Origin: an uncultured Oscillospiraceae bacterium
GTDB taxonomy: Bacteria > Bacillota > Clostridia > Oscillospirales > Ruminococcaceae
Assembly: GCA_949291395.1 (NCBI GenBank)
Contig: CASEVW010000185.1
Location: forward strand, 1 to 44,920
Reading direction: 5' to 3'
Length of the DNA stretch: 44,920 nt
Positions 7,533 through 24,645 of the stretch are shown here, piece by piece. Both the position numbers and the translations under genes were made by a program. Under the pieces are notes generated by a model, which did not search any database, was not told the DNA's origin, and saw only the letters and a list, made by a program, of their open reading frames with translations. Positions within the stretch are counted from its first letter, which is position 1; every line of letters begins with the position of its first letter.

Positions 7533-7555
7533 TGTCTCTTCCTCATTTTCTCAGG

Positions 7556-7599: not shown

Positions 7600-7608
7600 T
7601 ACAATCAA

Positions 7609-7637
7609 ACTATACCACTCTTGTTTTCGTTTTTCAA
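7609..7637 (-). promoter_or_regulatory. Sigma-A type promoter of the ROK-led operon
   Basis: On the minus strand TTGAAA (7637-7632) and TATAGT (7614-7609) are separated by exactly 17 bp. The predicted start near 7602 falls at the edge of the palindromic operator. Confidence 0.8.
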
Positions 7638-7720
7638 TGCAGCCCGTCCACTTTCTACATTTTTTCTATATGATCCTATCACTTTTTGTAAAATTCAACC
7701 ATAAGCGTTTACCTTTTCAC

Positions 7721-7761
7721 AAAAAAGCACCGGTTCTGCGCATTTCCACGCAAAAACCGGT
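7721..7761 (-). terminator. Rho-independent terminator of the 7815-8945 gene
   Basis: ACCGGTTCTGCG (7729-7740) pairs with CGCAAAAACCGGT (7749-7761). On the minus strand the stem is followed by a run of six T (7726-7721). An opposite-strand T-run also exists (7764-7770). Confidence 0.8.
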
Positions 7762-7814
7762 ACTCTTTTTTCGAAGTGATCTTAGCTGCCCTTGCAGCGC
7801 CGGGCGGCCGACCG

Positions 7815-9076: not shown

Positions 9077-9733
9077 TTACTCGCCAAATACGGCGATATA
9101 ATCTTTTTTAAATTTTTCGATGCCCTGATCGGTCAGGGGGTGTTTTGTCATCTGCTCGATCACCTTGTAGGGCACGGTGGCGATGTCCGCCCCGGCCAGG
9201 GCGCAGTCGGTCACATGGATGGGATTGCGCACGCTGGCGGCGATGATCTGGCAGTGGATGTCCTCGTAGTTGTCGAAGATCTGGCAGATGGCGGCGATCA
9301 GATCAATGCCGGGCTGGCTGATGTCATCCAGACGCCCCAGGAACGGGGACACATAGGTGGCGCCGGCACGGGCAGCCAGCAGCGCCTGGTTCGCGGTAAA
9401 GATCAGGGTGCAGTTGGTCTTGATGCCCTCCGCGCTCAAGGTTTTGATGGCTTTCAGGCCCTCGCAGGTCATGGGGATCTTCACCACCATGTTGGGGTGC
9501 AGGGCAGCGATGGCCCGGCCCTCCTGGATCATGCCTTCGGCATTCTCGGTGGTGGCCTTCACCTCGCCGGAGATGGGGCCGTCCACAATGGTGGCGATCT
9601 CTTTCAGGGTCTCCTGATAGTCCCGGCCCTCTTTGGCGATCAGGCTGGGGTTGGTGGTCACGCCGGCGATCACGCCCATTTCGTTGGCTTTGCGGATCTC
9701 GTCCACATTAGCGGTATCAATAAAAAATTTCAT
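9077..9733 (-). CDS. tal: Transaldolase, small (MipB/TalC-like) type
   Basis: 218 residues, the short single-barrel class shared by fructose-6-phosphate aldolase and small transaldolases. Asp6 (FIDTA), TTNPS (26-30) and the Schiff-base lysine K85 in VVKIPMT are all present. It transfers dihydroxyacetone units between sugar phosphates in the non-oxidative pentose phosphate pathway. The start at 9733 is chosen over an upstream ATG at 9805 because AAGGAG lies 8 nt before it and the protein aligns from this Met. It is the last gene of the nucleoside/pentose operon and may also have its own promoter. Confidence 0.92.
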
Positions 9734-9790
9734 GCTACAAATCTCCTTCCTGCAACATGTTTCCGGCTGCAAATTCGGTGCGTTTTTCTT

Positions 9791-9832
9791 ATTATAACAC
9801 ATCATCCCGCAGGCTTGCAGCGTGGGCGCTGC
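9791..9832 (-). promoter_or_regulatory. Hairpin and possible internal promoter before transaldolase
   Basis: GCAGCG (9817-9822) pairs with CGCTGC (9827-9832), directly after the fucose-isomerase-like gene. A consensus TATAAT follows on the minus strand (9796-9791). The -35 region overlaps the hairpin and is weak (TGCAAG at 17 bp). Transaldolase may be transcribed separately. Confidence 0.45.
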
Positions 9833-9835
9833 CCT

Positions 9836-11032
9836 TTATCTCTGTTTGAAAAACTCGTGCACCACATCCGCCCAGTGGCCCCGGCAGATCATATGGTGAT
9901 TGGAGATGGGCGCGCTGACAAAATAATCCGTTCCTTCCGGCAGGCGAATGTGCAGCTGGGTTCGGCACATATCCGGGCGGCGCAGGCTGGCCACCAGCTC
10001 GGCATCCTGCACATAATAGCGCTCCATGGTTTCGTCGCATTTGAAAATGGTGATGGGCCCGGCCGCCATTTCGCCGGAAAGCGCCACGCCCAGGCCCGAT
10101 TCAAAATGCGTGGTCAGCTGATAGGAATCGGGCATATTCACCGGCAGGGTGCAGTGCGCAAAGATCATCTCGCTGGTATGGCGGTCCAGCTGGCTGGGAT
10201 TGGCCATGAACACCGGCTGGCCGGTGAGCTGATACAGCACAGCCATGGCCAGCATGCTGCGGGTATCGCCCTCGCAGGCCGCCGGGATGCCTTCCGCATT
10301 CAGGATGGCCAGTGCCAGGCAGCCCGTGGTGCCAATGCTGCCCAGCAGATCAAAGCAGCGCAGCGTCATGGCCTGCAGGCCGTATTTCTGGACCAACCGC
10401 TTGGCCGCTCCATACACGTTCAGCGCTTTTTCCATCTCTTCCGCATCGTATCCGGTCTGTTTCAGCGCCCGGGTGTAGGCGTTTTCTTCATAGCCGCCCT
10501 TATGGTATTCGTCGATCAGCTCCTGCACTTCCAGCGTGAGCAGATCCGCACCAAAGCGGTTTTTCAGCATTGCATGGTCGGCCCGGCTGGCCACCAGCGT
10601 GATGGCCTCGCCAATGGCGCCCATGCGCATGCCGGCAATGTTCTGGCGGGCTTTGGCCGCCCGCAGCAGCACCTGCAGCCGCCGGGCGTTTTCCTCCACC
10701 GTGCCGTGCAGGATCTCGCCCTGCTCGCCATTCCGCTGCAGATACGCCAGGATCTCCATCGAAGCCGCCAGCGAGTTCCAGGCAGGCACGGTCAGCAAGA
10801 TATACGGCCCGTTCACACAGCGGCATACCCGGCTGAAGGGCTCCGCTGTTCCGCCGGAACCAATAAAGAACACGTGGATCTGCTGCTGACGGAACGTTTC
10901 TTCGTCCGCCGCAAACACCTCCATCCCCATCGCTTTGCCCAACTGAGCAAGATAATCCGCACAGTACTCCGGAATGTGGGGATCATTACAGTTGGTGGGG
11001 CCTAAGATTTGACAAACACCAAGTTTTTCCAT
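9836..11032 (-). CDS. L-fucose/D-arabinose isomerase-like protein
   Basis: 398 residues. Alternating beta/alpha N-terminal and central domains are followed by a C-terminal region (CEGDTRSMLAM, then GHWADVVHEFF at the end) typical of the FucI/AraA isomerase superfamily, where Glu/Asp/His residues bind the metal. The usual FucI length is close to 590 residues, so this is a shortened, family-level match as in the fucose-isomerase-like group found in sugar operons. The start at 11032 is set by AAAGGA 10 nt upstream. In an operon for ribose from nucleosides it may interconvert a free pentose and its ketose, but that is inference. Confidence 0.65.
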   Translation of the reverse strand: MEKLGVCQILGPTNCNDPHIPEYCADYLAQLGKAMGMEVFAADEETFRQQQIHVFFIGSGGTAEPFSRVCRCVNGPYILLTVPAWNSLAASMEILAYLQRNGEQGEILHGTVEENARRLQVLLRAAKARQNIAGMRMGAIGEAITLVASRADHAMLKNRFGADLLTLEVQELIDEYHKGGYEENAYTRALKQTGYDAEEMEKALNVYGAAKRLVQKYGLQAMTLRCFDLLGSIGTTGCLALAILNAEGIPAACEGDTRSMLAMAVLYQLTGQPVFMANPSQLDRHTSEMIFAHCTLPVNMPDSYQLTTHFESGLGVALSGEMAAGPITIFKCDETMERYYVQDAELVASLRRPDMCRTQLHIRLPEGTDYFVSAPISNHHMICRGHWADVVHEFFKQR

Positions 11033-11123
11033 ATCGTTTTCCTTTCCTGGCACAACCTGCGGCGTTGGATGCCGTCGCGGTCCGCCTGCCTTTTTTGATC
11101 GCAACCAATCGGTGCGCCTGCTT

Positions 11124-12071
11124 TTATTTGCGCTTCAGCACACGACGCACCGCTTCGGCAATGTTCGCAGCCCGCAGGCCAAAGGAGTCCATCAGGACCC
11201 CACCCGGGCCGGAATAGCCATACACATCCTGAACGCCCACCTTTTCCATGGGCACCGGGCAGCTGCGCAGCAGAACGTCGCCCACCGCATCGCCCAAACC
11301 GCCGATGACGCTGTGTTCCTCCGCTGTAACGATGGCGCCGGTCTCCTGCGCCGCCTTGCATACCGCCTCTTCGTCAATGGGTTTGATGGTGTGCATGTTG
11401 ATCACACGCACGCTCACGCCCTCGCCTTCCAGCAGCTTGGCTGCTTCCAGCGCCTCGTAGACCTCGGCCCCCATTGCAATGATGGTGGCGTCGGTGCCGC
11501 CCCGCTTTTGGATGCTCTTGCCCCAAACGAAGGCATAATCGTCATTGTGGTTGACGCTCTCCACCGGGAGGCGCCCCAATCTTAAATAGACCGGGCCTTC
11601 ATAGTCCAGCATGGCCTTCACCGCCGCCATCGTCTCGTAATGATCCGACGGGCAGATCACCGTCATGCCCGGAATGCTGCGCATGGTAGCACAGTCCTCG
11701 TTGCACTGGTGGGTCGCGCCGTCCTCGCCCACGCTGATGCCTGCGTGGGTGCCAACGATCTTCACATTCAGATGGGGATACCCCACCGAGTTGCGCACCT
11801 GTTCCATCGCCCGCTCGGCGCTGAACATCGCAAAGGTGGCCGCCACGGGGATCTTTCCGCAGGCCGCCAGGCCCGCCGCAACGCCGATCATGTTGCCCTC
11901 GGCAATGCCGCAGTCCACAAAACGTTCGGGGCACTCCGCCTTAAACAGATCGGTGCGGGTGGCTTTTGCCAGGTCTGCGTCCAGCACCACCAGCTGCGGA
12001 TATTCCTTTGCAGCCTGTGCCAGCGCCATGCCAAAGCTTTCCCGTGTCGCTTTTTTGATTTTTTCAGCCAT
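11124..12071 (-). CDS. Transketolase, C-terminal subunit
   Basis: 315 residues, covering the pyrimidine-binding and C-terminal domains of transketolase. GIAEGNM (55-61) carries the catalytic glutamate (E58) that activates the thiamine ring, and the phosphate/acceptor-site region SVGEDGATHQ is present. It pairs with the upstream gene to form a split transketolase. GGAGGTGG precedes the ATG and the reading frame overlaps the N-terminal subunit gene by 8 bp, so the two are translated together. Confidence 0.93.
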   Translation of the reverse strand: MAEKIKKATRESFGMALAQAAKEYPQLVVLDADLAKATRTDLFKAECPERFVDCGIAEGNMIGVAAGLAACGKIPVAATFAMFSAERAMEQVRNSVGYPHLNVKIVGTHAGISVGEDGATHQCNEDCATMRSIPGMTVICPSDHYETMAAVKAMLDYEGPVYLRLGRLPVESVNHNDDYAFVWGKSIQKRGGTDATIIAMGAEVYEALEAAKLLEGEGVSVRVINMHTIKPIDEEAVCKAAQETGAIVTAEEHSVIGGLGDAVGDVLLRSCPVPMEKVGVQDVYGYSGPGGVLMDSFGLRAANIAEAVRRVLKRK

Positions 12072-12915
12072 CGTTCTCCACCTCCAACATTGCAGCCCGC
12101 AGTTCGGACATGGCCTGCTGATATTGCTCGTCGTTGGGTGCGGCGCCGTGCCAGCCCACCTGGTTTTCCATGTAACTGACGCCCTTGCCCTTTACGGTCT
12201 TGGCCAACAGGACCGCCGGCTGACCCTTGTGGGCCCGCGCCTCGTCAAAGGCTTTTTCCAGCTGTTCCAGATCGTTGCCGTCGGCCACCGGGATCACATG
12301 GAACCCGAAGCCCTCAAACTTTTTATCCAAAGGCTCGATCCCGCCCACGGCTTCCACCGGGCCGTCGATCTGCAGGCCGTTGCAGTCCACGATCCAGCAT
12401 AGGTTATCCAGCTTTTTGTGGGCAGCAAACATGGCCGCCTCCCACACCTGGCCCTCTTCCAGCTCGCCATCGCCCAGCAGCACGTAGGTGCGGTAGTCAT
12501 CGCCAAACAGTTTGGCGGAAAGCGCCATGCCGCATGCGGCGCTGACGCCCTGCCCCAGGCTGCCGGTGGTCATGTCCACACCGGGGATCTTTTTCATGTC
12601 CGGATGGCCTTGCAAGATCGAGCCAGGGGCGCGGAAGCTGCCCAGCAGCTCCGGCGAGAAGAACCCGCGGGCACTGAGCGCGGCATAATAGCCAGGGCTG
12701 CTGTGCCCCTTTGACAGCACAAACCGGTCACGGCCTGGGGCTTTCGGCTGGCTGGGATCGATCCGCAGCTCCTTTTGATACAGCCAAGTGAAGATCTCGG
12801 CGCTGGACAGCGCGCCGCCGGGATGGCCGGAACTTGCCGCGTGCACCTGGGTCACCACGTCCATCCGCAACTGACAGGCCGCCTTTTTCAGGCGTTTCAA
12901 TTCCTGCTTTTCCAT
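12064..12915 (-). CDS. Transketolase, N-terminal (TPP-binding) subunit
   Basis: 283 residues, the diphosphate-binding half of transketolase. SSGHPGG (28-34) is the conserved substrate/cofactor loop, and GDGELEEGQVWE followed by VDCNGLQIDG is the thiamine diphosphate/metal motif (GDG...N). It moves two-carbon units between pentose and other sugar phosphates together with the 12071-11124 product. Only 12 bp separate it from rpiB upstream. Confidence 0.93.
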   Translation of the reverse strand: MEKQELKRLKKAACQLRMDVVTQVHAASSGHPGGALSSAEIFTWLYQKELRIDPSQPKAPGRDRFVLSKGHSSPGYYAALSARGFFSPELLGSFRAPGSILQGHPDMKKIPGVDMTTGSLGQGVSAACGMALSAKLFGDDYRTYVLLGDGELEEGQVWEAAMFAAHKKLDNLCWIVDCNGLQIDGPVEAVGGIEPLDKKFEGFGFHVIPVADGNDLEQLEKAFDEARAHKGQPAVLLAKTVKGKGVSYMENQVGWHGAAPNDEQYQQAMSELRAAMLEVENDG

Positions 12916-12927
12916 CTGTTACCCTCC

Positions 12928-13362
12928 TCACTGGATCTCGTCGATCATGTTGACGCGCGGCTCATGGATGCCGTGCTGAAACTCTGCCTGCATGTAGGCC
13001 TGTACCATGGCCCAGGCATGCTCGATGCCGACCGTGCGGCCGCCAAAGGCGATGACGTTGGCATCGTTGTGTTCTTTGGCCATGCGGGCGCTGTAACAGT
13101 CGGTGCACAGTGCGGCCCGGATGCCCCGGATCTTGTTTGCGGCAATGGAGATGCCAATACCAGTGCCGCAGCACAGCAAGCCGAAATCGTACCCTTCCGC
13201 CAGCAGCACCTTGCCCAGGTCCACCGCGATCTTGGGGTAATCCACCATCGTCTTGTCGTGGCAGCCCACGTCAAACACGGTATGGCCTTGCTCCTCCAGC
13301 CGCTTTTTCAGCTCTTCTTTCAGCTCAAAGCCGCCGTGGTCGCTTCCTACTACGATATTCAT
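12928..13362 (-). CDS. rpiB: Ribose-5-phosphate isomerase B
   Basis: 144 residues, the normal RpiB/LacAB length. SDHGGFELK (7-15) and the active-site cysteine C65 within CCGTGIGISIAANK are diagnostic. It interconverts ribose 5-phosphate and ribulose 5-phosphate. Its ATG overlaps the stop of the epimerase gene by 4 bp (ATGA), with AAAGGAAGG as ribosome binding site inside that gene. Confidence 0.95.
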   Translation of the reverse strand: MNIVVGSDHGGFELKEELKKRLEEQGHTVFDVGCHDKTMVDYPKIAVDLGKVLLAEGYDFGLLCCGTGIGISIAANKIRGIRAALCTDCYSARMAKEHNDANVIAFGGRTVGIEHAWAMVQAYMQAEFQHGIHEPRVNMIDEIQ

Positions 13363-14054
13363 TGTGCCTTCCTTTCTGCCGTTGGCTCCGTGCTCTCCAA
13401 ACGCTGGACAAAGCGCCGGGCCGAAGCCTCTATCCCATCCGGCTGGCCGAAGCAGACAAACGCGCCGCCCACCAAGATGTCCGCCCCGAGGGCGGCGCAG
13501 CGGGGGCCGTTTTCAAAGTCGATGCCGCCGTCCACCAGGATGCGGAACGAAAGCTGCCGCTGCTTGCGCAGCCGGTCCAATTCCGCCAAGCGGCGGTAGG
13601 TCTGTTCAAAAAAGCGTTGGCCGGAAAATCCCGGCTCCACACCCATCAGCAGCACATAGTCCACCTGGTCGATGACCTCGTCCAGCAGGCTCACCGGCTG
13701 AGAGGGATTCAGTACGACGCCGGCCTGAATGCCCAGTGCCTGGATCTTTTTTACCATGCGCAGAGCAAACGGGGTGGCGTCCAGATGAAAGGACGCCATC
13801 TCCGGATGCACCCGCTCCAGTTCTCCCAGCCAATCAAAGGGTCTGTCAGCCATCAGGTGGATGTCCATGGGGATGTCCGGGCGGTAACGCTTGATGGCTG
13901 CCGCCTGATCGAAGCTCAGGCACAAATTGGGCACATAGTGTCCATCCATCACATCCACGTGCAGCATCCGCGCCCCGCCGGCCACCACGTCATCGATCTC
14001 ACGAGCAAGATGCAGCGGGTCTGCACAAGCAAGCGTCGGGTTCAGGATCGTCAT
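13359..14054 (-). CDS. rpe: Ribulose-phosphate 3-epimerase
   Basis: 231 residues from the chosen ATG. The TIM barrel carries HVDVMDGHYVPN (metal-binding His/Asp), HLMADRP, VEPGFSGQRF and DGGI, all Rpe hallmarks. It converts ribulose 5-phosphate to xylulose 5-phosphate. A GTG at 14063 would give three more residues but lies directly on the GGGAGG sequence; the ATG at 14054 has this site 8-9 nt upstream and is preferred. It is coupled to the nucleoside hydrolase gene, whose stop is at 14060. Confidence 0.93.
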   Translation of the reverse strand: MTILNPTLACADPLHLAREIDDVVAGGARMLHVDVMDGHYVPNLCLSFDQAAAIKRYRPDIPMDIHLMADRPFDWLGELERVHPEMASFHLDATPFALRMVKKIQALGIQAGVVLNPSQPVSLLDEVIDQVDYVLLMGVEPGFSGQRFFEQTYRRLAELDRLRKQRQLSFRILVDGGIDFENGPRCAALGADILVGGAFVCFGQPDGIEASARRFVQRLESTEPTAERKAQ

Positions 14055-14059
14055 GCCGG

Positions 14060-15031
14060 TCACCTCCCGCTTTCTTGATAGCGGGCCAGCACCTGCAAAA
14101 AGTATTCCACGTATTTTTCCCGGTCCACCTTCTTGAGGAACAGGACAGTCTTATCCTCGAGAGGCTTGCGCAGATTGTCTTCAAAGTCCACCAGGGTGAA
14201 GCCGGTGGTCAGTTCGCCCTTGGTCTCCACGTCCGCAAAGTAGTGCTCGCCCTCAAACAGCTCAGGATGGGTCACGTACATCACGGTGCACAGATCGTGG
14301 ATGTCGACGCCCTTCTTCTGGCCGTCCACGGTATTTTCCGCCTTGGTGCTCTCCAGATAAAAACCGGTCACCTTATCCACCATATCCGCCACCGGATTGT
14401 GGAGCGCCCGGACCTTGTCCAGATCCTCATAGGTCAAAAAGCTGCCGCGGGTGCAGTCCAGGCTGCACATGACAAAGGGCACCTTTGTGGCGATCACGTA
14501 CTTGGCAGCCTCAGGGTCCGCCAGCACGTTGAAGGTGGCCACCGGGGTGGGGTTCCCCGTGCGCAGCGACCCGCCCATGAAAACGATCCGCTGGATCTTT
14601 TCCCTTGCGTCCGGGTGCTGCTGCAGCAGCAGGGCAATGTTGGTCAGCGGGGCCAGCGCGATGATGGTCACCGGCTCCGGCTGCGCCTGCAGCATGTTAT
14701 ACAAAAACTCATGGGCAGGCTGGGGTTCGGGCTGTTTGCTGGTCTTTTCGGCAAATTCGTAGCCGCCCAGGCCGTTGCTGCCGTGGATGTAAGCGGCATC
14801 CCACAGTTCCCGTTCCAGCGGCTTGGCCGCCCCTTTTGCCAGCGGCAGCTCGTTGCGCCCCATCAGATTCAGGGCATTCAGCGTGTTATAGGTGGTGATG
14901 TCCACCGGCAGGTTTCCGCACACCGTGGTCACCCCCAGCACATCCAGCCGCTCGGTCTTTAACGCATAGGCCAGCGCCACAATGTCATCAATGCCGGTGT
15001 CACAGTCGATCAGGACCTTGATCTTTTCCAT
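14060..15031 (-). CDS. Nucleoside hydrolase (IunH family)
   Basis: 323 residues. DCDTGIDD at 9-16 is the calcium-binding signature that activates water for N-glycosidic cleavage. TVCGN and a central FMGGSL stretch also fit the family. It splits ribonucleosides into base plus free ribose in the cytosol. AAAGGAG lies 6 nt before the ATG. Lying just downstream of cytidine deaminase and the BMP importer, it makes the role of this operon as nucleoside salvage for carbon very likely. The precise base preference cannot be read. Confidence 0.92.
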   Translation of the reverse strand: MEKIKVLIDCDTGIDDIVALAYALKTERLDVLGVTTVCGNLPVDITTYNTLNALNLMGRNELPLAKGAAKPLERELWDAAYIHGSNGLGGYEFAEKTSKQPEPQPAHEFLYNMLQAQPEPVTIIALAPLTNIALLLQQHPDAREKIQRIVFMGGSLRTGNPTPVATFNVLADPEAAKYVIATKVPFVMCSLDCTRGSFLTYEDLDKVRALHNPVADMVDKVTGFYLESTKAENTVDGQKKGVDIHDLCTVMYVTHPELFEGEHYFADVETKGELTTGFTLVDFEDNLRKPLEDKTVLFLKKVDREKYVEYFLQVLARYQESGR

Positions 15032-15064
15032 ACTATCTCCTTTCCATGGCCGCTTTGGGCCAGC

Positions 15065-15496
15065 TTAGGTATCCGTTCGGGACCAGGCAAACGGCAGCAG
15101 CTCGTCCAGCCGATGTGCCTGGATGTCGTCCGGTGTTTTTACACAATATACCATCATATCCGGCGGGCAGAACTGGCTCAGCACCTGCCGGCAGATGCCG
15201 CAGGGCGTGCAGTGGACCTGAGGGGGCTGGTTTTCCTCCCCGCCGCAAACAGCCAGCGCCGCAAACCGATCGCAGCCTTCGCTGACCGCCTTGAACAGGG
15301 CCACCCGCTCGGCACAGATGCTGGGTGTTTGGCCGTAGCACTCAATGTTGCCCGCCAAAAACACCCGACCGTCCTGCGCCAGCAAAGCAGCGCCCACCGT
15401 GTATCCGGAAATAGGCGCCCGGGCGCGGGTCTCTCTTGCCTGCAAGGCGGCTTTGGCCAGGTCCTGGATCTGCCGGGCCGAAACATTTCGCTCCAT
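15065..15496 (-). CDS. cdd: Cytidine deaminase
   Basis: 143 residues, the usual tetrameric class length. ICAERVAL carries the zinc Cys and catalytic Glu of this class, and PCGICRQVL supplies the other two zinc cysteines. It deaminates cytidine and deoxycytidine to uridine/deoxyuridine, feeding the nucleoside hydrolase. AAAGGAG precedes the ATG at 15496. Co-directional, 70 bp after the permease gene. Confidence 0.95.
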   Translation of the reverse strand: MERNVSARQIQDLAKAALQARETRARAPISGYTVGAALLAQDGRVFLAGNIECYGQTPSICAERVALFKAVSEGCDRFAALAVCGGEENQPPQVHCTPCGICRQVLSQFCPPDMMVYCVKTPDDIQAHRLDELLPFAWSRTDT

Positions 15497-15527
15497 GATA
15501 CGCTCCTTTTTTCTTTGTCATACACCT

Positions 15528-15552
15528 GCGCCCGGACGATTCGTCCGGGCGC
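15528..15552 (-). promoter_or_regulatory. Strong intercistronic hairpin between permease and cdd
   Basis: GCGCCCGGACG (15528-15538) and CGTCCGGGCGC (15542-15552) form a perfect 11-bp stem with a 3-nt loop. No T-run follows on the transcribed strand, so it is more likely a 3'-end stabiliser for the transporter mRNA than a terminator. Confidence 0.6.
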
Positions 15553-15566
15553 TGGGGATCAGTCAG

Positions 15567-16499
15567 TTAACGCTGCTGTACAAATTTGGTGTAGGGCTGG
15601 CCGCCGGAAGCGATGCCAACATTTTCCTTGCTGGCGCTCAGAGCCAGCACGATCACGGTGGCCACGTAGGGGATCATCTGGATGAATTCCGCAGGCACCG
15701 GATTGTTGGGGATGGTCTGCAGGTAAAGCTGCAGTGCGCTGAAGAAGCCGAAGAACATGGCGGAGCCAAACACGCCCCAGGTGTTCCAGCGGCCCATGGT
15801 AACAGCGCCCAGAGCCAGGTAGCCGCGGCCGGCGACCATGTCTTCCTGGAACATGTTCATGCCGCCGATGGACAGCATGGCGCCGCCCAGGCCGCCCATC
15901 ACGCCGGAAAAGATCACGCTGAAATAGCGGATGCGGTGCACCGACAGGCCGGCGGTCTCCGCTGCTTTGGGGTTTTCGCCCACAGTCATGATGCGCAGGC
16001 CCAGGCGGGTGTGCTTGAACAGGTACCAGACCACGAACAGCATGATGAACAGAATGTACACAAAGGGAGACTGCTGCGCCAGGAACGGGCCGATCACAGG
16101 GATGTTCTCCAGCGGGGTGGTGGTAGGCAGATAGGGCACCTGGGGGCTGTTGCCCTGCTGGTTGAACAAGGCTTTCAGGCCCACGCCGGAGATACCGGTG
16201 GACAGCAGGACCAGCGCCATGGAGCTGACCGCCTGGGTGCCGCCCCAGGTGATGCACACCAGCGAGTGGATGGCGGAGATCGCAATGCCGATAATGATGG
16301 CAAAGAGGATGCCCATCCAGGCGTTCTGGAACAGATAGCTGCCCACGGCCGCACCAAAGGCGGACGCGGTCATAATGCCTTCCAGACCGATGTTGTTCAC
16401 ACCGCTGCGCTCACTGGTCATGCCGCCCAATGCGGTAAAGGCAATGGGAGTGCCCATGCGCAGAGTGGCCGAAAGCAGATAGCTGATGGCATTAATCAT
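15567..16499 (-). CDS. Nucleoside ABC transporter permease 2 (BMP-type)
   Basis: 310 residues with about 8-9 membrane helices and the conserved start typical of the second BMP-system permease (GGMTSERSGVNNIGLEG). This EAA-like loop is shared with YufQ/NupC-type permeases. It forms the channel with the 16492-17577 product and is energised by the double ATPase. GGGAGGG precedes the ATG, which overlaps the upstream permease gene by 8 bp. Confidence 0.9.
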   Translation of the reverse strand: MINAISYLLSATLRMGTPIAFTALGGMTSERSGVNNIGLEGIMTASAFGAAVGSYLFQNAWMGILFAIIIGIAISAIHSLVCITWGGTQAVSSMALVLLSTGISGVGLKALFNQQGNSPQVPYLPTTTPLENIPVIGPFLAQQSPFVYILFIMLFVVWYLFKHTRLGLRIMTVGENPKAAETAGLSVHRIRYFSVIFSGVMGGLGGAMLSIGGMNMFQEDMVAGRGYLALGAVTMGRWNTWGVFGSAMFFGFFSALQLYLQTIPNNPVPAEFIQMIPYVATVIVLALSASKENVGIASGGQPYTKFVQQR

Positions 16500-17577
16500 T
16501 CTTTTTCCCTCCCATACGCTTGATGTAGTAACGGATCACATGCTCCGCACACAGGAACACGATGATGAGGCCCTGGATGACATCCACCATATTCTTGGAA
16601 ATGCCAGCGCTGGACTGCATCATGGCCGAACCGCTGCGCATGGCGCCGATCAGCAAAGCGGAGAAGATGATCGCAAAGGGATTGTTGTGGGCCATAAGCG
16701 CAACGGGAATGCCGTTGAAGCCGTAGTTTGCGGAGAAGTTGTTCACGATCTTATCCAGGCTGCCGGTGACCTCGATGCCGCCGGCCAAGCCCGCCAGGGC
16801 GCCGCTGATGAGCAGCGCCAGGAACATATTCTTTTTCACATTGATGCCGTTCACCCGGGAGGCATTCGGGTTGAAGCCCACGGCCCGCATCTCGTAACCC
16901 ATGCTGGTGCGGTTCAGGATGATATACACCACCACCACCGCCACCAAAGCGAGCACAAAGCCCAGGTTCAGCACATAGGGTTTGGGCAGCAGATCCGGCA
17001 GCTGCGCCGTGGTGTCGATGGTGGGCGTTGCCGGGGATTCACCGGGGCCCTTAAAGGGTCCCAGGATCAGGTAAGACACCAGGTACTGCGCAATGTAGTT
17101 GAACATGATGGTGCTGATGACCACGTTCACGTTCCGTTTCATTTTCAGGGCCGCAGGCACCAGCGCCCACAGCATACCGCCCACCATGCTGGCCAGGATG
17201 GTAAGGGGCAGATGCAACGCCATGGGCAGATGCACATAAGCACCCACCAGCGCCGCGCACATGGCGCCGATCAGCAGCTGGCCTTCCGCGCCGATGTTGA
17301 ACACGCTGCACCGAAACGCGATGGCCACCGCCAGACCGGTGAGCATAACGGGGACCGCTTTTCCCAGCGTAACGATAAAGGCGATGCCGGTGCCGAACGC
17401 GCCCCGCCACAGCGCACCGTAGGCCTCGATGGGGTTCGAGCCGAAGGCCCAGATCACCACAGCGCCCACCAGCAGCGCCATGACCAGCGCGATCAGGGTG
17501 ATCAGCAGGCTCAATCCAGTCTCCTGCAGTTTTTTCTTATCCACAGTGAACAGGGGTTTTTTCGTTTTCGTCTCCAA
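16492..17577 (-). CDS. Nucleoside ABC transporter permease 1 (BMP-type), TTG start
   Basis: 361 residues with a cytoplasmic N terminus and about 8-10 membrane helices. The segment FRCSVFNIGAEGQLLIGA is the family signature of YufP/NupB-type permeases. The start is a TTG at 17577: a perfect AAGGAGG (17592-17586) lies 8 nt upstream, whereas a further TTG at 17613 has no site and would overlap the ATPase gene. The AAGGAGG overlaps the ATPase stop codon, so translation is probably coupled. Confidence 0.88.
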   Translation of the reverse strand: METKTKKPLFTVDKKKLQETGLSLLITLIALVMALLVGAVVIWAFGSNPIEAYGALWRGAFGTGIAFIVTLGKAVPVMLTGLAVAIAFRCSVFNIGAEGQLLIGAMCAALVGAYVHLPMALHLPLTILASMVGGMLWALVPAALKMKRNVNVVISTIMFNYIAQYLVSYLILGPFKGPGESPATPTIDTTAQLPDLLPKPYVLNLGFVLALVAVVVVYIILNRTSMGYEMRAVGFNPNASRVNGINVKKNMFLALLISGALAGLAGGIEVTGSLDKIVNNFSANYGFNGIPVALMAHNNPFAIIFSALLIGAMRSGSAMMQSSAGISKNMVDVIQGLIIVFLCAEHVIRYYIKRMGGKKND

Positions 17578-17590
17578 AAGTCTCCCCTCC

Positions 17591-19129
17591 TTAACCTTGT
17601 TTTCCGGAACCAAGCATCATGCGGCCAAGTTCCTGCCGGGTAACGCTTTCAGCGTCCACCACGTCCACGATCTTTCCTTTGAAAATAACGGCGATCCGGT
17701 CGCTGACGGACAGGATCTCGTCCAGTTCCAGCGAAAACAGCAGCACGCCCTTGCCCTGGTCCCGCTGCTCCAGCAGCGTTTTCTGCACAAATTCCATGGC
17801 GCCGATGTCCAGGCCGCGGGTGGGCTGCACGGCGATGAGCACGTCCGGGTTGCGGCTGGCTTCCCGCGCGATGATGATCTTCTGCTGGTTGCCGCCGGAC
17901 AGCGTGCCCGCCGGAACGTCCACACTGGCGCAGCGGATGTCAAAATCCTTCTGCAGTTCCTGGGCATTGGTGTGGATCTGTTTGAAATCCATCCAGGCGT
18001 GATGGTGCGCGAAGGGCTCCTGATAGTGCAGGCCCAGCACCAGGTTGTCGGCCACGCTGTATTCCAGGATCAGGCCATCCCGATGACGGTCTTCCGGCAC
18101 CAGGCCCAAGCCGCCGTCCTTGCGGGCGCGGATGCCCTGGCGAGAGATGTCCTGGCCTTTGAAGACGATCTGGCCGGAATCCGGAACGATCTGGCCGCAG
18201 ATGGCCTGCACCAGTTCCTCCTGCCCGTTGCCGTCCACGCCAGCAATGCCCAGCACCTCTCCGGCTTTCAGCTGCAGGTCGATGCCGTCCAGCTTTTTCA
18301 CCGTTTTGTTCACGGTGTAGCTTACGTTTTTCAGTTCCAGCAGGCTGGGCTGGTTTTCAAAATGCTTGCGCTCCTTGCGGGACAGGTCCACGTCACGGCC
18401 CACCATCATGCGGGTCAGCTCGTCCACGTTGGTCTCGTCCTTGCGCACCGTGCCCACCACTTTGCCCCGGCGGATCACCGTGATGTGATCGCTGATCTTC
18501 ATGACCTCGGCCATCTTGTGGCTGATGAACAGGATCGTTTTGCCGCTTGCTTTCAGGCCCAGCAAAATGTCGCAGAATTCGTCGATCTCCTGGGGCGTGA
18601 GCACGGCGGTGGGTTCGTCAAAAATGAGGATCTCCGCTTCACGATACAGGATCTTCAGGATCTCCACCCGCTGCTGCTCGGTAACAGACAGATCCGCCAC
18701 CTTGGCGTGGGGGTCGATCTTCAGGCCGTAGGTTTCGCTTAATTGCCGGATGCGCTCTTCCGCGCCTTTGCGGTCCACTTTCAAAGGGCTGCCAGGTTCC
18801 TGGCCAACCACGATGTTTTCGGCTACGGTCAGTTTGGGGATCAGCATAAAATGCTGGTGCACCATGCCGATTTTGTGCGCGATGGAATCCTTCGAGCTGG
18901 AAAACCGCACCGGCTTTTCGTTGACCAGGATCTCGCCTTCATCCGGTTGATACAAACCGTAGATGATGTTCATCAGGGTGGACTTGCCCGCGCCGTTCTC
19001 ACCGGCCAGGGTGTGGATCTCGCCCTGCTCCACATCAATGGTAATGTGATCGTTGGCAACAATGCCAGGGAAGCGTTTGGTGATATTCTTCAGCTGAATG
19101 CTGTATTTCACGCTCACACCGCTCACCAT
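17591..19129 (-). CDS. Nucleoside ABC transporter ATP-binding protein (two ABC domains)
   Basis: About 512 residues with two fused nucleotide-binding domains, as in BMP/Nup and sugar importers. The first has GENGAGKST (Walker A) and a degenerate signature LSVTEQQ; the second has GVDGNGQEE in place of a Walker A and a good signature LSGGNQQK. So only one composite ATP site is likely to be fully canonical, as is known for this family. The start is ambiguous: the ATG at 19129 sits too close to AAAGG, and GTG codons at 19117 and 19111 are alternatives. The last stretch overlaps the ribosome binding site of the permease gene. Confidence 0.92.
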   Translation of the reverse strand: MVSGVSVKYSIQLKNITKRFPGIVANDHITIDVEQGEIHTLAGENGAGKSTLMNIIYGLYQPDEGEILVNEKPVRFSSSKDSIAHKIGMVHQHFMLIPKLTVAENIVVGQEPGSPLKVDRKGAEERIRQLSETYGLKIDPHAKVADLSVTEQQRVEILKILYREAEILIFDEPTAVLTPQEIDEFCDILLGLKASGKTILFISHKMAEVMKISDHITVIRRGKVVGTVRKDETNVDELTRMMVGRDVDLSRKERKHFENQPSLLELKNVSYTVNKTVKKLDGIDLQLKAGEVLGIAGVDGNGQEELVQAICGQIVPDSGQIVFKGQDISRQGIRARKDGGLGLVPEDRHRDGLILEYSVADNLVLGLHYQEPFAHHHAWMDFKQIHTNAQELQKDFDIRCASVDVPAGTLSGGNQQKIIIAREASRNPDVLIAVQPTRGLDIGAMEFVQKTLLEQRDQGKGVLLFSLELDEILSVSDRIAVIFKGKIVDVVDAESVTRQELGRMMLGSGKQG

Positions 19130-19147
19130 CCTTTCTGTCAAAATAGC

Positions 19148-19192
19148 AAAAGGGCCGCAGAGACAGGCCGTCCCGCCCATTTCTGCGGCCCT
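19148..19192 (-). terminator. Leaky terminator/attenuator after the BMP lipoprotein gene
   Basis: AGGGCCGCAGA (19151-19161) and TCTGCGGCCCT (19182-19192) form a perfect 11-bp stem. On the minus strand it is followed by a broken T tract (TTTGCTATTTTG). This position, directly after a binding-protein gene and before the ATPase gene, is the classic place for partial termination that keeps the binding protein in excess. Confidence 0.65.
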
Positions 19193-19232
19193 GCATATCC
19201 TTGGGGTCGATTTGGGATCCGTTCAATGCAGA

Positions 19233-20291
19233 TCAGGCCAGAGATGCCACATAAGCGTCGTACTCTTCCTGGGTGCCGGGCACCTGGATCTCGCCGTTGA
19301 TGATCTTGTTTTTCAGATCTTCGACTGTGGTCTTTGCTTCTTCCGGAATGGAGTTCAGCAGCTCATCGTTCATGGTGGTGTAGCGCAGCTCCACGCCGCC
19401 TTCCTTCAGGCCCAGCACGGTGCAGGCCCCGCCGTTGAAGGTGCCGTTTTCCACGTAATCCTTGATCATGTCATACAAAGCCGTGTCGATGCTCTTTACC
19501 ACAGAGGCCACGATCTTGTCCGGCATTTTGTCAAACTGGCCGGTAGCGGCGCCCAGGCAGTACTTGCCTTCGCCGGCCTCTTTGGCCGCGTTGAACACAC
19601 CCAGGTTGCAGGCGCCGGCAAAGCAGCTCACGTAGTCAGCGCCCTGGTCGTACAGGGCTTTGGCGGACTCTTGGCCCAGGTTGGTGTCGGTGTAGCTGTT
19701 GGTGAACATCACGCTCACATCACAGTTCGGGTCCACGGTCTTGGCGCCTGCGGTATAGCCAAACTGGTAGCGCAGCTGCAGGGGCTCCTGCACGGCCAGC
19801 ACGGCGCCGATCTTGCCGCTCTCGCTCAGGGAAGCCGCCAAAGCGCCGCCCAGGAACGCAGCCTCGTGCTCTTTGTACTCCACGCTCATCACGTTCTCCG
19901 CACCGGTCTCCTCGCCTGCCAGGTACATGAACTTGCAGTCAGGATATTCGGCCGCCACTTCCATCATGGCGTCGTGGTATTCCGAGGAAGGCACCACCAG
20001 CAGTGTGTCGCCCTGGGCGATCAGGGTCCGCAGGCTGTTGGCAGCATCGGAGACCTCGCTCACTTCGATGTACTCGGCGGTCACCGGCAGATCCTGCTGG
20101 ACCTTTTCCAGGCCGGCCCAAACGTCGTCGTTGAAGCTTTGGGTGCCCATGCTGGAAGCGATCAGGCCCACCCGCAGCTGGGCATCGCCGGTATCGCCGG
20201 CATCACCGCCGCCCTCGGCACCAGATCCGCCGCAGGCTACCAGTGACAACGCCATTGCGCCAGCCATGATCAGAGCCAATAATTTTTTCAT
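19233..20291 (-). CDS. BMP-family nucleoside-binding lipoprotein
   Basis: 352 residues. A lipoprotein signal peptide with lipobox LVAC (Cys20) is followed by a Gly/Ala/Glu linker and a periplasmic-binding fold. GLIASSMGTQSFNDDVWAGL and the later SCFAGACNLGVFNAA fit the basic membrane protein (PnrA/BmpA) family, which binds purine or other nucleosides at the cell surface. AGGAGG precedes the ATG. First gene of the ABC importer set, separated from the sulfatase gene by 85 bp with a hairpin. Confidence 0.92.
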   Translation of the reverse strand: MKKLLALIMAGAMALSLVACGGSGAEGGGDAGDTGDAQLRVGLIASSMGTQSFNDDVWAGLEKVQQDLPVTAEYIEVSEVSDAANSLRTLIAQGDTLLVVPSSEYHDAMMEVAAEYPDCKFMYLAGEETGAENVMSVEYKEHEAAFLGGALAASLSESGKIGAVLAVQEPLQLRYQFGYTAGAKTVDPNCDVSVMFTNSYTDTNLGQESAKALYDQGADYVSCFAGACNLGVFNAAKEAGEGKYCLGAATGQFDKMPDKIVASVVKSIDTALYDMIKDYVENGTFNGGACTVLGLKEGGVELRYTTMNDELLNSIPEEAKTTVEDLKNKIINGEIQVPGTQEEYDAYVASLA

Positions 20292-20340
20292 TGTTCTGTC
20301 CTCCTTAATGTTCCGATCTTCGTTCCGTATGTTTTATTGC

Positions 20341-20361
20341 AACAGGCTCGTGCCGCCTGTT
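20341..20361 (-). promoter_or_regulatory. Hairpin between sulfatase and BMP lipoprotein genes
   Basis: AACAGGC (20341-20347) pairs with GCCTGTT (20355-20361) just downstream of the sulfatase stop. No T-run follows on the minus strand (GCAATAAAAC), so this is at most a weak terminator. Confidence 0.45.
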
Positions 20362-20376
20362 CCAGACACAGTAAAC

Positions 20377-21897
20377 TCAGTTGCCCTCCGGCGGCAGCAG
20401 CCGCTGCAGCGGCACCGGGTCGCAGGCTTCTTTCTGCTTTTTCGCCAGCAGCTGCCGCATCTTCGCTTTCAGCTCATCGTATTCCGGCAGGCAGGCCAGG
20501 TTCTTCATCTCGTAGGGGTCTGCGTTCAGGTCGTACAATTCATCCTGCTGGCCTTCAAAGCAGACATATTTGATGTTGTTCTCATCCACCACCATGCGCC
20601 CCAAAAGCGTGAGGCCATAACCGTGGCCGTAGGTCTCGCACATCAGGCTGTCACGCCACGTGCTCTCCTGCGGGCGGTGGCATGCCAGGTCCAGCAGGCT
20701 GCGGCCGTCCACCCGTTCCGGGAAAGCGAGCCCGGCGGCATTCAGCATGGTCACCGGCAGATCACAGGTGAAAACAAAGTGATCGTCCTTTTGGCCGGGC
20801 TGGATCTGCCCGGGCCAGCGCACTGCCAGCGGGACCCGTTCCACTTCCTGCGCCATGTGCGAATCCTTGTCGAAGTGGCCTCCCTGGCAGGCGATGGCAT
20901 CGCCATGGTCAGTGGTCCAGATGACGATGCTGTTCTGATCCAGCCCCAATTCCCGAAGCTTGTCCACCACCAGGCCGCCGGCAGCGTCCACCATGGTGAT
21001 GTGGGCATAGCAGCGGGCCAGCATCTTCTGCCACTCGCTCCAGGGCAGCGGGTTGGGCCGCAGGATATGTTTGCCGTCTCCCAACGGCCGGCTGACCTCC
21101 CAGGTCAGGTTTTCCGGCTTATCATGCAAATCGTTTTCAAAGCTGGGATACATGGGGATGTCCGCCGGGTCGTACAGGTCCGCAAATTCCTTTGTGGGGA
21201 AGAAGGGCTGGTGCGGACCCCAAAAGTCCACCCGCAGGCTCCAGGGCTGGTCAGGATCCTGCTTTGCAAGTTCTTCCAGCTTGTCGCAGGCCAGATTGGC
21301 CAGGAAAAACGCCTCGTGGCTTTCTTTGGGGGTAACGGTCAGGCCGATGGCGTGCTCGCCGCACCAGTAATCCTCGCATTGATACAGCTCCCCTTCTTTC
21401 AGCTTTTGGAAAAAGTGGCTGTCTTCGTAGGAATCCGGCCGCAGGACCCGTTCCACCATGTGCTGCGCCCGGGGAATGCCTCGTTTTTTGCAGTACTCGG
21501 CATATTCCGGGGTGTTGTAAGGGTTGCCGTATCCGCTTTGGGAAAGCCCGGTGCAGTGATGGTCGTACGCACAGCCCGGGCCGGCATGCCATTTTCCGTA
21601 ATAGTAGTTGGTGTAGCCGTTTTGCGCCAGAATGTCCAGGTAGACATCATGCCGGTACGGCGGGTCGTTTTCATTGTGTACCTGCCCATGGGTGTGGGGA
21701 TACAATCCGGTGAGCATGGTGCGGCGGGCCGGGCCGCACATAGGGGTAACACAATAAGCGTTGGTAAACTCCATGCCTTCGGCGGCGAATTTTTCAAAAT
21801 TCGGCCGCATAGGACGGGGGCCGCCCTGCGCCATACCGTGACCATAATAGGCCTGGTGGTCGTTCAGAATGTACACAATGTTCGGTTGCCGTGGCAT
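20377..21897 (-). CDS. Sulfatase, cysteine-type, without signal peptide
   Basis: 506 residues of the alkaline phosphatase/sulfatase superfamily. PNIVYILNDHQ at the start is the first metal strand. C54-G-P-A-R58 matches the CxPxR formylglycine site, followed by YPHTHG. WTTDHGD near the middle holds the second metal Asp/His set. Cys-type enzymes need an anaerobic (radical SAM) or aerobic maturase, and none is in the window. There is no signal peptide, so it should act in the cytosol on imported substrate. The ATG at 21897 follows AAAGGAAG; an earlier ATG at 21942, overlapping the regulator stop, has no good site. It lies directly between the Crp-type regulator and the nucleoside importer. Confidence 0.9.
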   Translation of the reverse strand: MPRQPNIVYILNDHQAYYGHGMAQGGPRPMRPNFEKFAAEGMEFTNAYCVTPMCGPARRTMLTGLYPHTHGQVHNENDPPYRHDVYLDILAQNGYTNYYYGKWHAGPGCAYDHHCTGLSQSGYGNPYNTPEYAEYCKKRGIPRAQHMVERVLRPDSYEDSHFFQKLKEGELYQCEDYWCGEHAIGLTVTPKESHEAFFLANLACDKLEELAKQDPDQPWSLRVDFWGPHQPFFPTKEFADLYDPADIPMYPSFENDLHDKPENLTWEVSRPLGDGKHILRPNPLPWSEWQKMLARCYAHITMVDAAGGLVVDKLRELGLDQNSIVIWTTDHGDAIACQGGHFDKDSHMAQEVERVPLAVRWPGQIQPGQKDDHFVFTCDLPVTMLNAAGLAFPERVDGRSLLDLACHRPQESTWRDSLMCETYGHGYGLTLLGRMVVDENNIKYVCFEGQQDELYDLNADPYEMKNLACLPEYDELKAKMRQLLAKKQKEACDPVPLQRLLPPEGN

Positions 21898-21941
21898 AAC
21901 GATCTTGCTTCCTTTCCTTTTGATTTTTTCAACATCATCCA

Positions 21942-22655
21942 TCACAGGTCCAGTTCCCGGATCTTTGTTAGTTGCTCGGGCGTGCAATGGATATTTCCGT
22001 TGCTTGTGGTGGTGATCAGTCCTTCCTTTTTCAGCTCGTTCAGTGCCCTGCACACGGTGCGCACCGTGACACCCAGTTCGCTGGCGATGACCGCTCGCTT
22101 TTCCGAAATGCACAGCGGCTGGTCCTCGTTTTCGCCCGCTTCCGTCCATTTGCGGTGCAGGTAATACAGCATGTTTTCTCTCGCGGTGAAGAAGTTCAGC
22201 CGTTCGATGTGGGAATAGTTGCGGGTCATCGCCCGGGACATGCTCTCCACGCAGGCATAAGACACCACCGAATACCGGCGCATGGCCTGCAAAAAGAATT
22301 CACAATCGATCTTTACCGCCAAACAGTTGCTGCTGGCCACGATATTGGAATAAAAGACCTTATCGTCCGATACCAGCTGCATGATGCCCAAAAACTCCGG
22401 CCCCCATACCCGGGCGATCATGCCGCTGCCGCCCTTGGCCGAACTGCGCATCAGGCAAAACTCCCCTTCCACCACCAGGATCATCTTGGTGAGCACCTGG
22501 TTGCAGACCACGATGGGCTTTTCTTTGGGATAGCGGGCCAGGGTCATATATTTGTTTAAGTAGGGCTGAAGATCCGCCGAGGTAAATTTTTTTCCAATGA
22601 CCGGCTTGTCCAACATCTGCAGCAACTGGATCAGCTGGTCAAATTCCTTCTCCAC
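21942..22655 (-). CDS. Crp/Fnr-family transcriptional regulator
   Basis: About 237 residues from the GTG at 22655, the usual length for the family. An N-terminal cyclic-nucleotide-binding-like beta barrel (about 40-130), a long dimer helix and a C-terminal winged helix (ELGVTVRTVCRALNEL) are visible. No Fnr-type N-terminal cysteine cluster is seen. The GTG start is favoured because AAGGGAG lies 7 nt upstream; in-frame ATGs at 22793, 22751 and 22673 lack good sites and the first lies inside an inverted repeat. It is first in line with the sulfatase and importer genes and so is the likely regulator of the operon. Confidence 0.8.
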   Translation of the reverse strand: MEKEFDQLIQLLQMLDKPVIGKKFTSADLQPYLNKYMTLARYPKEKPIVVCNQVLTKMILVVEGEFCLMRSSAKGGSGMIARVWGPEFLGIMQLVSDDKVFYSNIVASSNCLAVKIDCEFFLQAMRRYSVVSYACVESMSRAMTRNYSHIERLNFFTARENMLYYLHRKWTEAGENEDQPLCISEKRAVIASELGVTVRTVCRALNELKKEGLITTTSNGNIHCTPEQLTKIRELDL

Positions 22656-22773
22656 ACGTTCACTCCCTTGCATCGGCCACCATTCCGCCATACCCGTTCG
22701 GGAGCGCTGGTCTGTCATCTGGGAGCCGTTTTTGTTTGTTTTGTTACCCATAGCATAACGAAAACCCGGACAG

Positions 22774-22799
22774 CGAAACATGTCAAATGTCATGTTTCG
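22774..22799 (-). promoter_or_regulatory. Perfect inverted repeat upstream of the Crp-type gene
   Basis: CGAAACATG (22774-22782) and CATGTTTCG (22791-22799) are perfect inverted copies separated by 8 bp. Weaker flanking symmetry GACA/TGTC extends the match. It lies about 120 bp upstream of the chosen start codon and is a good candidate for the regulator's own operator. No convincing -35/-10 pair could be fixed here; the DNA further upstream (22800-22912) is markedly AT-rich. Confidence 0.6.
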
Positions 22800-23708: not shown

Positions 23709-23806
23709 AGAACGCTCCTTTCCGCGGGCCGCAGCGCCGCTTTGGGCTAGATTTGTCGTTACTGTTATATATGTGCCAGGGTCCGTTTTCTTGCCTTGGC
23801 GCAAGC

Positions 23807-24532: not shown

Positions 24533-24547
24533 ACCTTCTCCCCTTTC

Positions 24548-24561: not shown

Positions 24562-24576
24562 CGAACATCCTCCTCC

Positions 24577-24605: not shown

Positions 24606-24645
24606 ATCCAGACTTGATGTTTGAAGAAATAAAAGGAGAATCACT

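Follow-up and report, generated by a model that had tools for sequence, protein, structure and literature searches.

A candidate operon for the catabolism of sugar-sulfated nucleosides in an uncultured Oscillospiraceae bacterium

We begin by considering a run of 14 minus-strand genes (positions 9077 to 22793) on a contig of 44,920 nucleotides, the whole of which is called the window here, from an uncultured Oscillospiraceae bacterium. In this run a sulfatase gene stands among the genes of a nucleoside-type importer, a cytidine deaminase (CDA), a nucleoside hydrolase (NH) and enzymes of the pentose phosphate pathway, and on balance the run is probably a dedicated operon for the catabolism of nucleosides whose sugar bears a sulfate ester. 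Read from sequence, the genes and their families, the conserved linkage between sulfatase and nucleoside genes, and altered residues at the sugar contacts of the importer, the CDA and the NH are what carry this reading. An earlier prediction on this DNA had named the genes, and all of them are found by profile matches and sequence on the minus strand in the order it gave; the linkage is real, conserved and more specific than that prediction saw. From the first gene to the last, the run reads as follows.

21942 to 22793, minus strand: Crp/FNR-type regulator, first gene (cNMP_binding and HTH_Crp_2, Pfam above cut-off)
20377 to 21942, minus strand: cytosolic Cys-type (formylglycine) sulfatase (PF00884 138.6 bits, SGSH_C 89 bits; 506 aa from 21897)
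19233 to 20291, minus strand: BMP/PnrA-type substrate-binding lipoprotein with altered ribose site (PF02608 197.5 bits; aligned with BmpA, BmpD and Lbp)
17591 to 19180, minus strand: ABC transporter ATPase with two ATP-binding domains (Pfam ABC_tran, two stretches; closest NCBIfam a BMP-type importer ATPase, 495.9 bits, below the cut-off of 670)
16492 to 17613, minus strand: importer permease 1 (PF02653 155.8 bits)
15567 to 16499, minus strand: importer permease 2 (PF02653 115.9 bits)
15065 to 15496, minus strand: CDA variant (PF00383 54.4 bits; NCBIfam PRK05578 96.1, above the cut-off of 74)
14060 to 15031, minus strand: NH variant (PF01156 294.4 bits)
13359 to 14063, minus strand: ribulose-phosphate 3-epimerase, Rpe (NCBIfam PRK05581 subfamily 173.6 against a cut-off of 165; TIGR01163 195.7, slightly under 212.6)
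12928 to 13362, minus strand: ribose-5-phosphate isomerase B, RpiB (TIGR01120 169.6, above the cut-off of 138.65)
12064 to 12915, minus strand: transketolase N-terminal half (NCBIfam transketolase matches covering part of the model)
11124 to 12071, minus strand: transketolase C-terminal half (NCBIfam transketolase matches covering part of the model)
9836 to 11032, minus strand: arabinose/fucose-isomerase-fold protein (AlphaFold and Foldseek)
9077 to 9733, minus strand: TalC/Fsa-type transaldolase, last gene (PF00923 217.6 bits; TIGR00875 312.7, above the cut-off of 245.95)

The first question is "does the sulfatase keep this company in other genomes?" A sulfatase scan of genome contigs gives 33 loci with homologues (numbered with an L below), one further locus having been met later, and a quick sulfatase tree of 49 rows places the window inside a 17-row group (SH-aLRT 92, below the 95 mark) of Bacillota and Spirochaetota that is nested in a 29-row clade (SH-aLRT 98). 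A BMP protein, an NH or a nucleoside phosphorylase lies within 10 kb of the sulfatase in 16 of the 17 group members; the exception is L027, in whose genome a different contig carries the NHs and the variant importer. The sister rows give 0 of 12, 8 of these 12 being on pieces that fall short of 10 kb on at least one side, and profile searches of their flanks returned no NH, no phosphorylase and one weak BMP-profile match (L035, E 1.7e-6), which is not counted as Pfam assigns the protein to NMT1/THI5-like. Some sister sulfatases are from Lokiarchaeota (L026, L029-L032, L038; 47-53% identical), with no nucleoside genes in the available flanks. As a control, such genes stand within 10 kb of 7 of the 46 listed sulfatases from outside the clade, and some of these share loci with clade members. 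These 46 are the best-scoring sulfatases among the matches listed for the Bacillota and spirochaete genomes G152-G165, G172 and G174 (11 of the 16 had any), and their neighbours are same-contig places, with a few distant ones left out. Fisher's test of the linkage against the 46 gives 9.8e-9, a value that ignores relatedness.

The arrangement of the loci can be compared as well. The order Crp, sulfatase, BMP, ATPase, permeases, CDA, NH, Rpe, RpiB and the two transketolase halves is kept in L014, L015, L016 and L017, with the isomerase gene at the locus end in the first two and on the opposite side and strand in the last two, and the spirochaete locus L022 reads isomerase, BMP, ATPase, permeases, NH, sulfatase, Rpe, RpiB and both transketolase halves. 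Because the order from Crp to transketolase is kept in four related genomes and most of the genes recur in a spirochaete, the run is, judged by its conservation, more than a chance gene order; Crp-like genes also stand before the sulfatase in L014-L019. The window, L014-L017, L022, L028 and L121 are loci of the NH type. Other loci have phosphorylases: the sulfatase of L020 is surrounded by uridine phosphorylase (Udp), phosphopentomutase DeoB and DeoC, L025 has the importer, sulfatase, Udp and DeoC, and L018 has a purine nucleoside phosphorylase (PNP), DeoC and a GPH-type symporter, all by NCBIfam matches above curated cut-offs. L121, a second locus in Hungatella hathewayi WAL-18680, combines, as read mainly by tblastn, DeoC, Udp, CDA, sulfatase, importer, Crp, RpiB, a LacI regulator, Rpe, NH and transketolase. 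Since non-homologous enzymes of the same pathway are swapped between loci, passive gene order is hard to invoke. In L044 the sulfatase, the importer, a maturase-like gene (338.8 bits, slightly under the TIGR03942 cut-off of 349.45) and a TauE-family exporter are consecutive.

Within the family sample a sulfatase match at E<=1e-40 occurs in 8 of 148 genomes, three of them (the window included) at 54% identity or more and five at 32-33%. In the genus sample the variant BMP is found in 3 of 7 genomes with the sulfatase adjoining it in all three; G025 and G137 have neither, and G148 and G151 are outside the sulfatase search. The original prediction would have fallen had the sulfatase stood beside the importer solely in this strain; a strain-only linkage is rejected, as the pairing is kept in relatives of the genus and in many other lineages. 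For plasmid spread, one near-identity search with 2665 bases gave no match.

Three observations on other parts of these genomes may be recorded here. At its end (17662-19898), L121 encodes a glycyl radical enzyme of YjjI-like type (671.7 bits) as well as a radical-SAM ferredoxin-type protein. The Hungatella genome that contains L025 also has a non-clade sulfatase (10604-12046) adjoining a PNP_UDP_1 gene (12098-12853; L183, G163:C1:5000-24900). On contig C67 of the window genome, a sulfatase (7226-8266, L002) is near a rhamnulokinase-like FGGY kinase (9425-10084, L193; 447 bits, below the cut-off of 528), and this pair is possibly part of a sulfated deoxysugar pathway.

We turn our attention to the importer. 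In the available part of PMC13325309, Asp98, Asp225 and Lys242 of BmpA are positioned to engage the ribose, Phe27 and Phe176 clamp the base, and ribose alone is not bound. With this numbering transferred by a constant offset of 4, which fits those residues named in the source passage that were checked, alignment of the window BMP with BmpA, BmpD and Lbp gives GAATGQ for GVDxDQ and MYLA for AIID; Asp98 and Asp225 are both Ala, Lys242 and Phe27 are kept, and Phe176 is Tyr. The window protein is thus of the nucleoside-importer type by its family and its base clamp but departs from that type at the ribose anchors, and since both Asp residues are lost, the binding of plain nucleosides is doubtful. 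The family, the two-domain ATPase, the two permeases, the aromatic base clamp and Lys242 are common to this importer and those of Borrelia BmpA/BmpD, Treponema TmpC/PnrA and S. pneumoniae PnrA, whereas the Ala at 225 (in the Gemmiger group at 98 also) and an Arg before the Phe151 column set the window type apart.

These pocket changes follow the sulfatase. From 73 distinct BMP-type proteins gathered, the 56 with Lys or Arg at the Lys242 column were counted; the 17 left out have no sulfatase found in their flanks. Of the BMPs that have a clade sulfatase at 5 kb or less, 11 of 11 show Ala for Asp225, in a GxAxGQ motif, and in the same 11 of 11 an Arg precedes the Phe151 column. The 41 BMPs with no sulfatase found within 5 kb (13 of them with less than 4.5 kb of flank on one side, the lowest-score BMP matches being outside the sample) have Asp in 33, the GxAxGQ motif in 1 (L122) and Asn, Gly or Glu in the other seven (3, 2 and 2), with the Arg in 5. 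Fisher's test of the pocket contrast gives 1.3e-6, again ignoring relatedness. Beside sulfatases of other clades, Asp is kept in 1 of 4 BMPs. In L184 (G154:C44, 3250-11205), L145 and L153, sulfatases of other clades adjoin BMP importers that lack Asp225 (GGASGQ, GVGPNQ, GVGSNQ), and for that reason the pairing of BMP and sulfatase may have arisen more than once.

The window genome also has an ordinary BMP (GVDTDQ) adjoining an ordinary CDA, as do 4 of 6 searched genus relatives, so that a second importer would not be needed for plain nucleosides. In this ordinary cluster of the genus (L050-L054) a CDA is likewise paired with a BMP, with the difference that the pocket (GVDTDQ) and the CDA are canonical, and the ordinary-type BMPs in the genomes of L014, L015 and L017 have no sulfatase within about 6 kb on either side (L163-L165). 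One may still suppose an ordinary nucleoside operon that imports plain nucleosides, with the sulfatase as a neighbour whose target is an unrelated sulfate ester, for example that of a glycan fragment. Other sulfatases do sometimes stand near nucleoside genes, as the 7 of 46 controls illustrate, and the fold of the window sulfatase is closest to glycan sulfatases and phosphonate monoester hydrolases (PMH), with choline sulfatases next. We consider this alternative unlikely in view of the 16 of 17 linkage with swapped enzyme sets, an importer pocket that tracks the sulfatase, the ordinary importer already present, and the count of glycoside hydrolases among the 14 operon proteins, which is zero. 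The re-tooled sugar site of the importer favours a sulfated nucleoside over a plain one as the ligand.

The next question is "do the enzymes that handle the nucleoside after import differ at the sugar as well?" The window NH keeps the calcium motif DCDTGIDD (DxDxxxDD) and the Asn of the TFN segment, and it has Thr166, with Arg157 nearby, at the place of the ribose-site Glu, which we take to be E166 in the numbering of C. fasciculata NH and to touch O5'. Across 40 distinct NHs, including 3 solved-structure references, this column holds Glu in 30 and Thr in 10. The Thr type comprises the enzymes of the window, L014-L017, L022 and L121 (the last being L115) and three enzymes from L122. Each of the ten is next to a GxAxGQ BMP, and Arg or His occurs at 157 in 10 of 10 of them against 4 of 30 others. 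The ribose-site Glu is listed in the ribose cavity of RihC enzymes in the available part of PMC10778931. The three NHs of L122 are in tandem and adjoin its GxAxGQ BMP; the genome in question (Candidatus Schneewindia, G164) has 35 NH-family matches in 1.8 Mb, some of them partial at contig ends.

For the CDA, the available part of PMC9897663 gives Asn42, Glu44, Ala46 and Tyr48 as docked to the 3' and 5' oxygens, and its numbering was placed by motif, with the ordinary CDA of the same genome for comparison. The window CDA retains the zinc site (CAE and PCGxC), Asn42 and Glu44, and has Tyr in place of Ala46 and Gln in place of Tyr48. In the operon CDAs, Asn42 and Glu44 are kept in 6 of 6, Tyr48 is lost in 6 of 6 and Ala46 in 5 of 6, while ordinary CDAs of the genus (n=3) keep all four. 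Which of these residues serves which sugar oxygen is an assumption on our part.

The sulfatase itself has the maturation motif MCGPARRTMLTG (CGPAR) together with GKWH and DHGD, and C54-x-P56-x-R58, K102, H104, D330 and H331 do not vary among 20 aligned clade members; the truncated sulfatase of L038 is without the DHGD stretch. The Lys and His of GKWH and the Asp-His metal pair presumably have their usual roles. A maturase is encoded elsewhere in the genome (contig C94, TIGR03942 388 bits, above the cut-off of 349.45), and with it the protein bears the sequence marks of a formylglycine S1 sulfatase. The AlphaFold model of the 506-aa form (pLDDT 91.7) has the sulfatase/PMH fold, and the structure search puts it closest to S1 sulfatases with PMHs close behind. 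Fold search alone separates these two poorly; a PMH or phosphodiesterase identity is disfavoured because GKWH is conserved, where PMH-type residues would presumably be expected instead. The S1 sulfatases 7oz8 (labelled choline-sulfatase; BT1918_S1_46), 5g2v and 6pt4 have the fold and the active-site motifs in common with the window protein, which differs from them in sequence (18-24% identity in the structural matches shown), in its nucleoside-gene context and in having, by eye, no signal peptide from either possible start (21942 or 21897).

Combining the information of the importer, the enzymes and the sulfatase, we explore a potential pathway. A sugar-sulfated nucleoside would be taken in by the BMP-type ABC importer, the CDA variant would deaminate it where the base is cytosine, and the NH variant would free the base; the formylglycine sulfatase, matured by the radical-SAM maturase encoded elsewhere, would strip the sulfate in the cytosol, and the pentose would enter the non-oxidative pentose phosphate branch through RpiB, Rpe, transketolase and transaldolase. 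Here we infer the ligand, the place of the sulfatase step relative to CDA and NH, the mode of pentose phosphorylation and, as the weakest point, the 5' position of the sulfate. The occurrence across the loci of CDA and Udp (pyrimidine) and of PNP (purine) would put the sulfate on the sugar instead of on one base. Since the CDA and the NH are altered at the sugar, the sulfate is favoured to be still on during their steps in the Thr-type operons; phosphorylase-type and L028-type loci would probably desulfate first. The original prediction had an imported sulfated nucleoside or pentoside desulfated and then burnt through the pentose pathway. It is supported in part: in many lineages the sulfatase goes with genes for taking up and degrading nucleosides, and the importer's sugar site is re-tooled. 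Its desulfation-first order is a weaker point, the altered CDA and NH contacts suggesting that the sulfate may still be on at their steps, and its step from ribose to pentose phosphate is missing. A sulfated pentoside is a less likely substrate than a sulfated nucleoside, given the uridine or purine phosphorylase and the CDA found in relatives.

A more specific form of the scheme can be imagined, in which the sulfate is kept on the ribose (most likely at 5'-O) through import, deamination and base removal, the sulfatase then acts on a pentose sulfate, and the isomerase-fold enzyme helps to route the pentose without a ribokinase. We offer this form tentatively, as a possibility that may well prove wrong; we know of no importer, CDA and NH adapted to 5'-sulfated nucleosides.

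The enzymes at the distal end of the run deserve a closer look. The transketolase N half is one of three genomic copies, the two paralogues being 58-59% identical, so the operon copy need not be the housekeeping one. The isomerase-fold protein has no Pfam match at E<=0.001, and its AlphaFold model (pLDDT 80.9) gives 41 Foldseek matches at E<=0.001 (best E 1.6e-21, TM 0.75), all of them arabinose or fucose isomerases (L-arabinose, D-arabinose, L-fucose); the model suggests a possible aldopentose-ketopentose isomerase. Its top NCBIfam match is sulfoquinovose isomerase (SftI), at 58.7 bits against a cut-off of 700. This match raises the thought of a sulfo-sugar pathway in which a sulfated or sulfonated sugar is itself the substrate of the isomerase, RpiB, the split transketolase and TalC. 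In the sulfoquinovose pathways sulfo-TK and sulfo-TAL, SqwGH is two-part and SqwI is RpiB-like. The isomerase, transketolase and transaldolase kinds of these pathways do match the window run (available part of PMC12890257); they differ from it in dealing with a sulfonate and not an ester, and that part of the source names no sulfatase, NH, CDA or BMP importer for them. RpiB of the window scores above its own cut-off and the transketolase halves match generic models only, sulfatases cleave esters and not sulfonates, there is no sulfoquinovosidase among the 14 operon proteins, and the isomerase is not seen in L018, L021, L025, L028 and L121. Taken with the large shortfall of the SftI score, this makes the sulfo-sugar pathway very unlikely.

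Several points weigh against the sulfated-nucleoside reading. One concerns the kinase step for the freed ribose: no ribokinase reached the TIGR02152 cut-off (299.65) in the window genome, 2.58 Mb in 198 contigs (the window being C185) and 94.87% complete, and 7 of 10 related genomes are likewise without one. The sole BMP of the L024 locus, 8.7 kb away, keeps Asp. In L122 both the BMP and the NH variants occur, and the 18 kb of sequence covered contains no sulfatase, that genome's sulfatase being on another contig (L027). L028 has the GxAxGQ BMP, yet both of its NHs keep Glu; the CDA of L121 retains Ala46. In the phosphorylase-type loci, a sulfate at 5' would have to come off before the base does. 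Each variant protein type could be a single clade, in which case the counts may not represent independent events. Finally, we know of no abundant sulfated nucleoside in guts.

The kinase gap can be described further. The window genome has three PfkB proteins (264-290 aa pieces scanned; best ribokinase score 104.4 bits), by best match a KDG-kinase/IolC-like protein (KDG, 2-keto-3-deoxygluconate), a 1-phosphofructokinase (above cut-off) and a pseudouridine-kinase-like protein, and four FGGY proteins, one glycerol-kinase-like (245-aa piece) and three rhamnulokinase-like (two above cut-off). A ribokinase or ribulokinase that would close the pathway is thus not supported in this genome, as none of the 3 PfkB and 4 FGGY proteins reached either cut-off. 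Ribokinase is above cut-off in 3 of the 10 related genomes: 0 of 6 with an isomerase-like gene in the locus (L014-L017, L020, L022) against 3 of 4 without it (L018, L021, L025, L028), the best score below the cut-off being 284 in the genome of L016. In L028 a ribokinase above cut-off stands immediately before the two NHs. The contrast between presence of the isomerase gene and absence of ribokinase is no more than a hint. The gap might be filled by another kinase, by a ribulose route through the isomerase-fold protein, or by an NH that yields ribose 5-phosphate from a nucleotide.

The last of these options belongs to another explanation, that 5'-phosphorylated or phosphosulfated nucleosides are what the importer, CDA and NH act on, with the sulfatase yielding a nucleoside monophosphate (e.g., from a 5'-phosphosulfate) and the Thr-type NH acting as a nucleotide hydrolase that gives ribose 5-phosphate with no need for a ribokinase. 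This would account for the missing ribokinase and for direct entry at RpiB and Rpe, and it fits the changes in BMP, NH and CDA, which lie close to the sugar site and are anion-friendly. The sister loci, however, carry uridine and purine phosphorylases, whose substrates are nucleosides and not nucleotides, and to our knowledge the only familiar natural nucleoside phosphosulfates are adenosine 5'-phosphosulfate (APS) and 3'-phosphoadenosine 5'-phosphosulfate (PAPS). In the available part of PMC9897663 a panel of CDAs acted very poorly on cytidine monophosphate. We therefore regard a nucleotide pathway as quite unlikely, and return to the sulfated nucleoside as the preferred substrate.

The inter-gene gaps range from -23 to +102 bp with the starts adopted; the Crp-like gene possibly starts at 22793 instead of 22655, hence the run as given, and the sulfatase start at 21942 (the other possible start is 21897) overlaps the Crp stop codon (TGATG at 21944-21940). 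By eye, a hairpin with a T-run lies directly 3' of the transaldolase gene. Promoter-like sites (7 against 5.9 expected) and terminator-like sites (25 against 14.2 expected) are near expectation or in excess of it, so we make no firm claim of a single transcript. Judged by the sulfatase, the closest named relatives are Gemmiger sp. An87 and An50 (91-92% identical). A 15-pair hairpin with a T-run at 22952-22915 (minus strand), between gene 23064-23804 and the Crp gene, may be a terminator or a leader; gene 23064-23804 is DedA/VTT-like by eye, and a promoter match (11/12) is at 23092-23063, upstream of this hairpin. At 23858-26286 a second Crp-like gene (by eye) adjoins an opposite-strand hybrid-cluster (Prismane) protein gene (606 bits), probably an ordinary nitrosative-stress pair.

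Known bacterial nucleoside catabolism (deoCABD, rih genes, ribokinase) has NH or phosphorylase, DeoB, DeoC and pentose phosphate enzymes in common with loci of the window type, and the window run is unlike it in having a sulfatase built in, no ribokinase in the run and an altered NH sugar site. In the literature searched, sulfated nucleosides are mainly known as components of animal venoms; they occur in spider venom (PMC6832493), and a beetle pupal case contains sulfated purine glucosides (PMC6940665), according to the available parts of these sources. A literature search gave no description of microbial catabolism of sulfated nucleosides among the matches listed (titles and abstract starts of open-licence literature only, which makes this weak evidence). 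The operon is likely to serve nucleoside catabolism with a new class of substrate, which, we infer, is a sugar-sulfated nucleoside. If this is true, it would add a new class of substrate for sulfatases and connect the breakdown of nucleosides to the release of sulfate in the gut, and the binding protein and enzymes of the operon would be ready tools for finding sulfated nucleosides. From a conserved operon whose importer has diverged alongside it, one would predict that sulfated nucleosides are common enough in guts to serve as food, and a pathway that retains the sulfate would, if true, mean that guts and other anoxic places contain a pool of sulfated nucleosides that has escaped notice.

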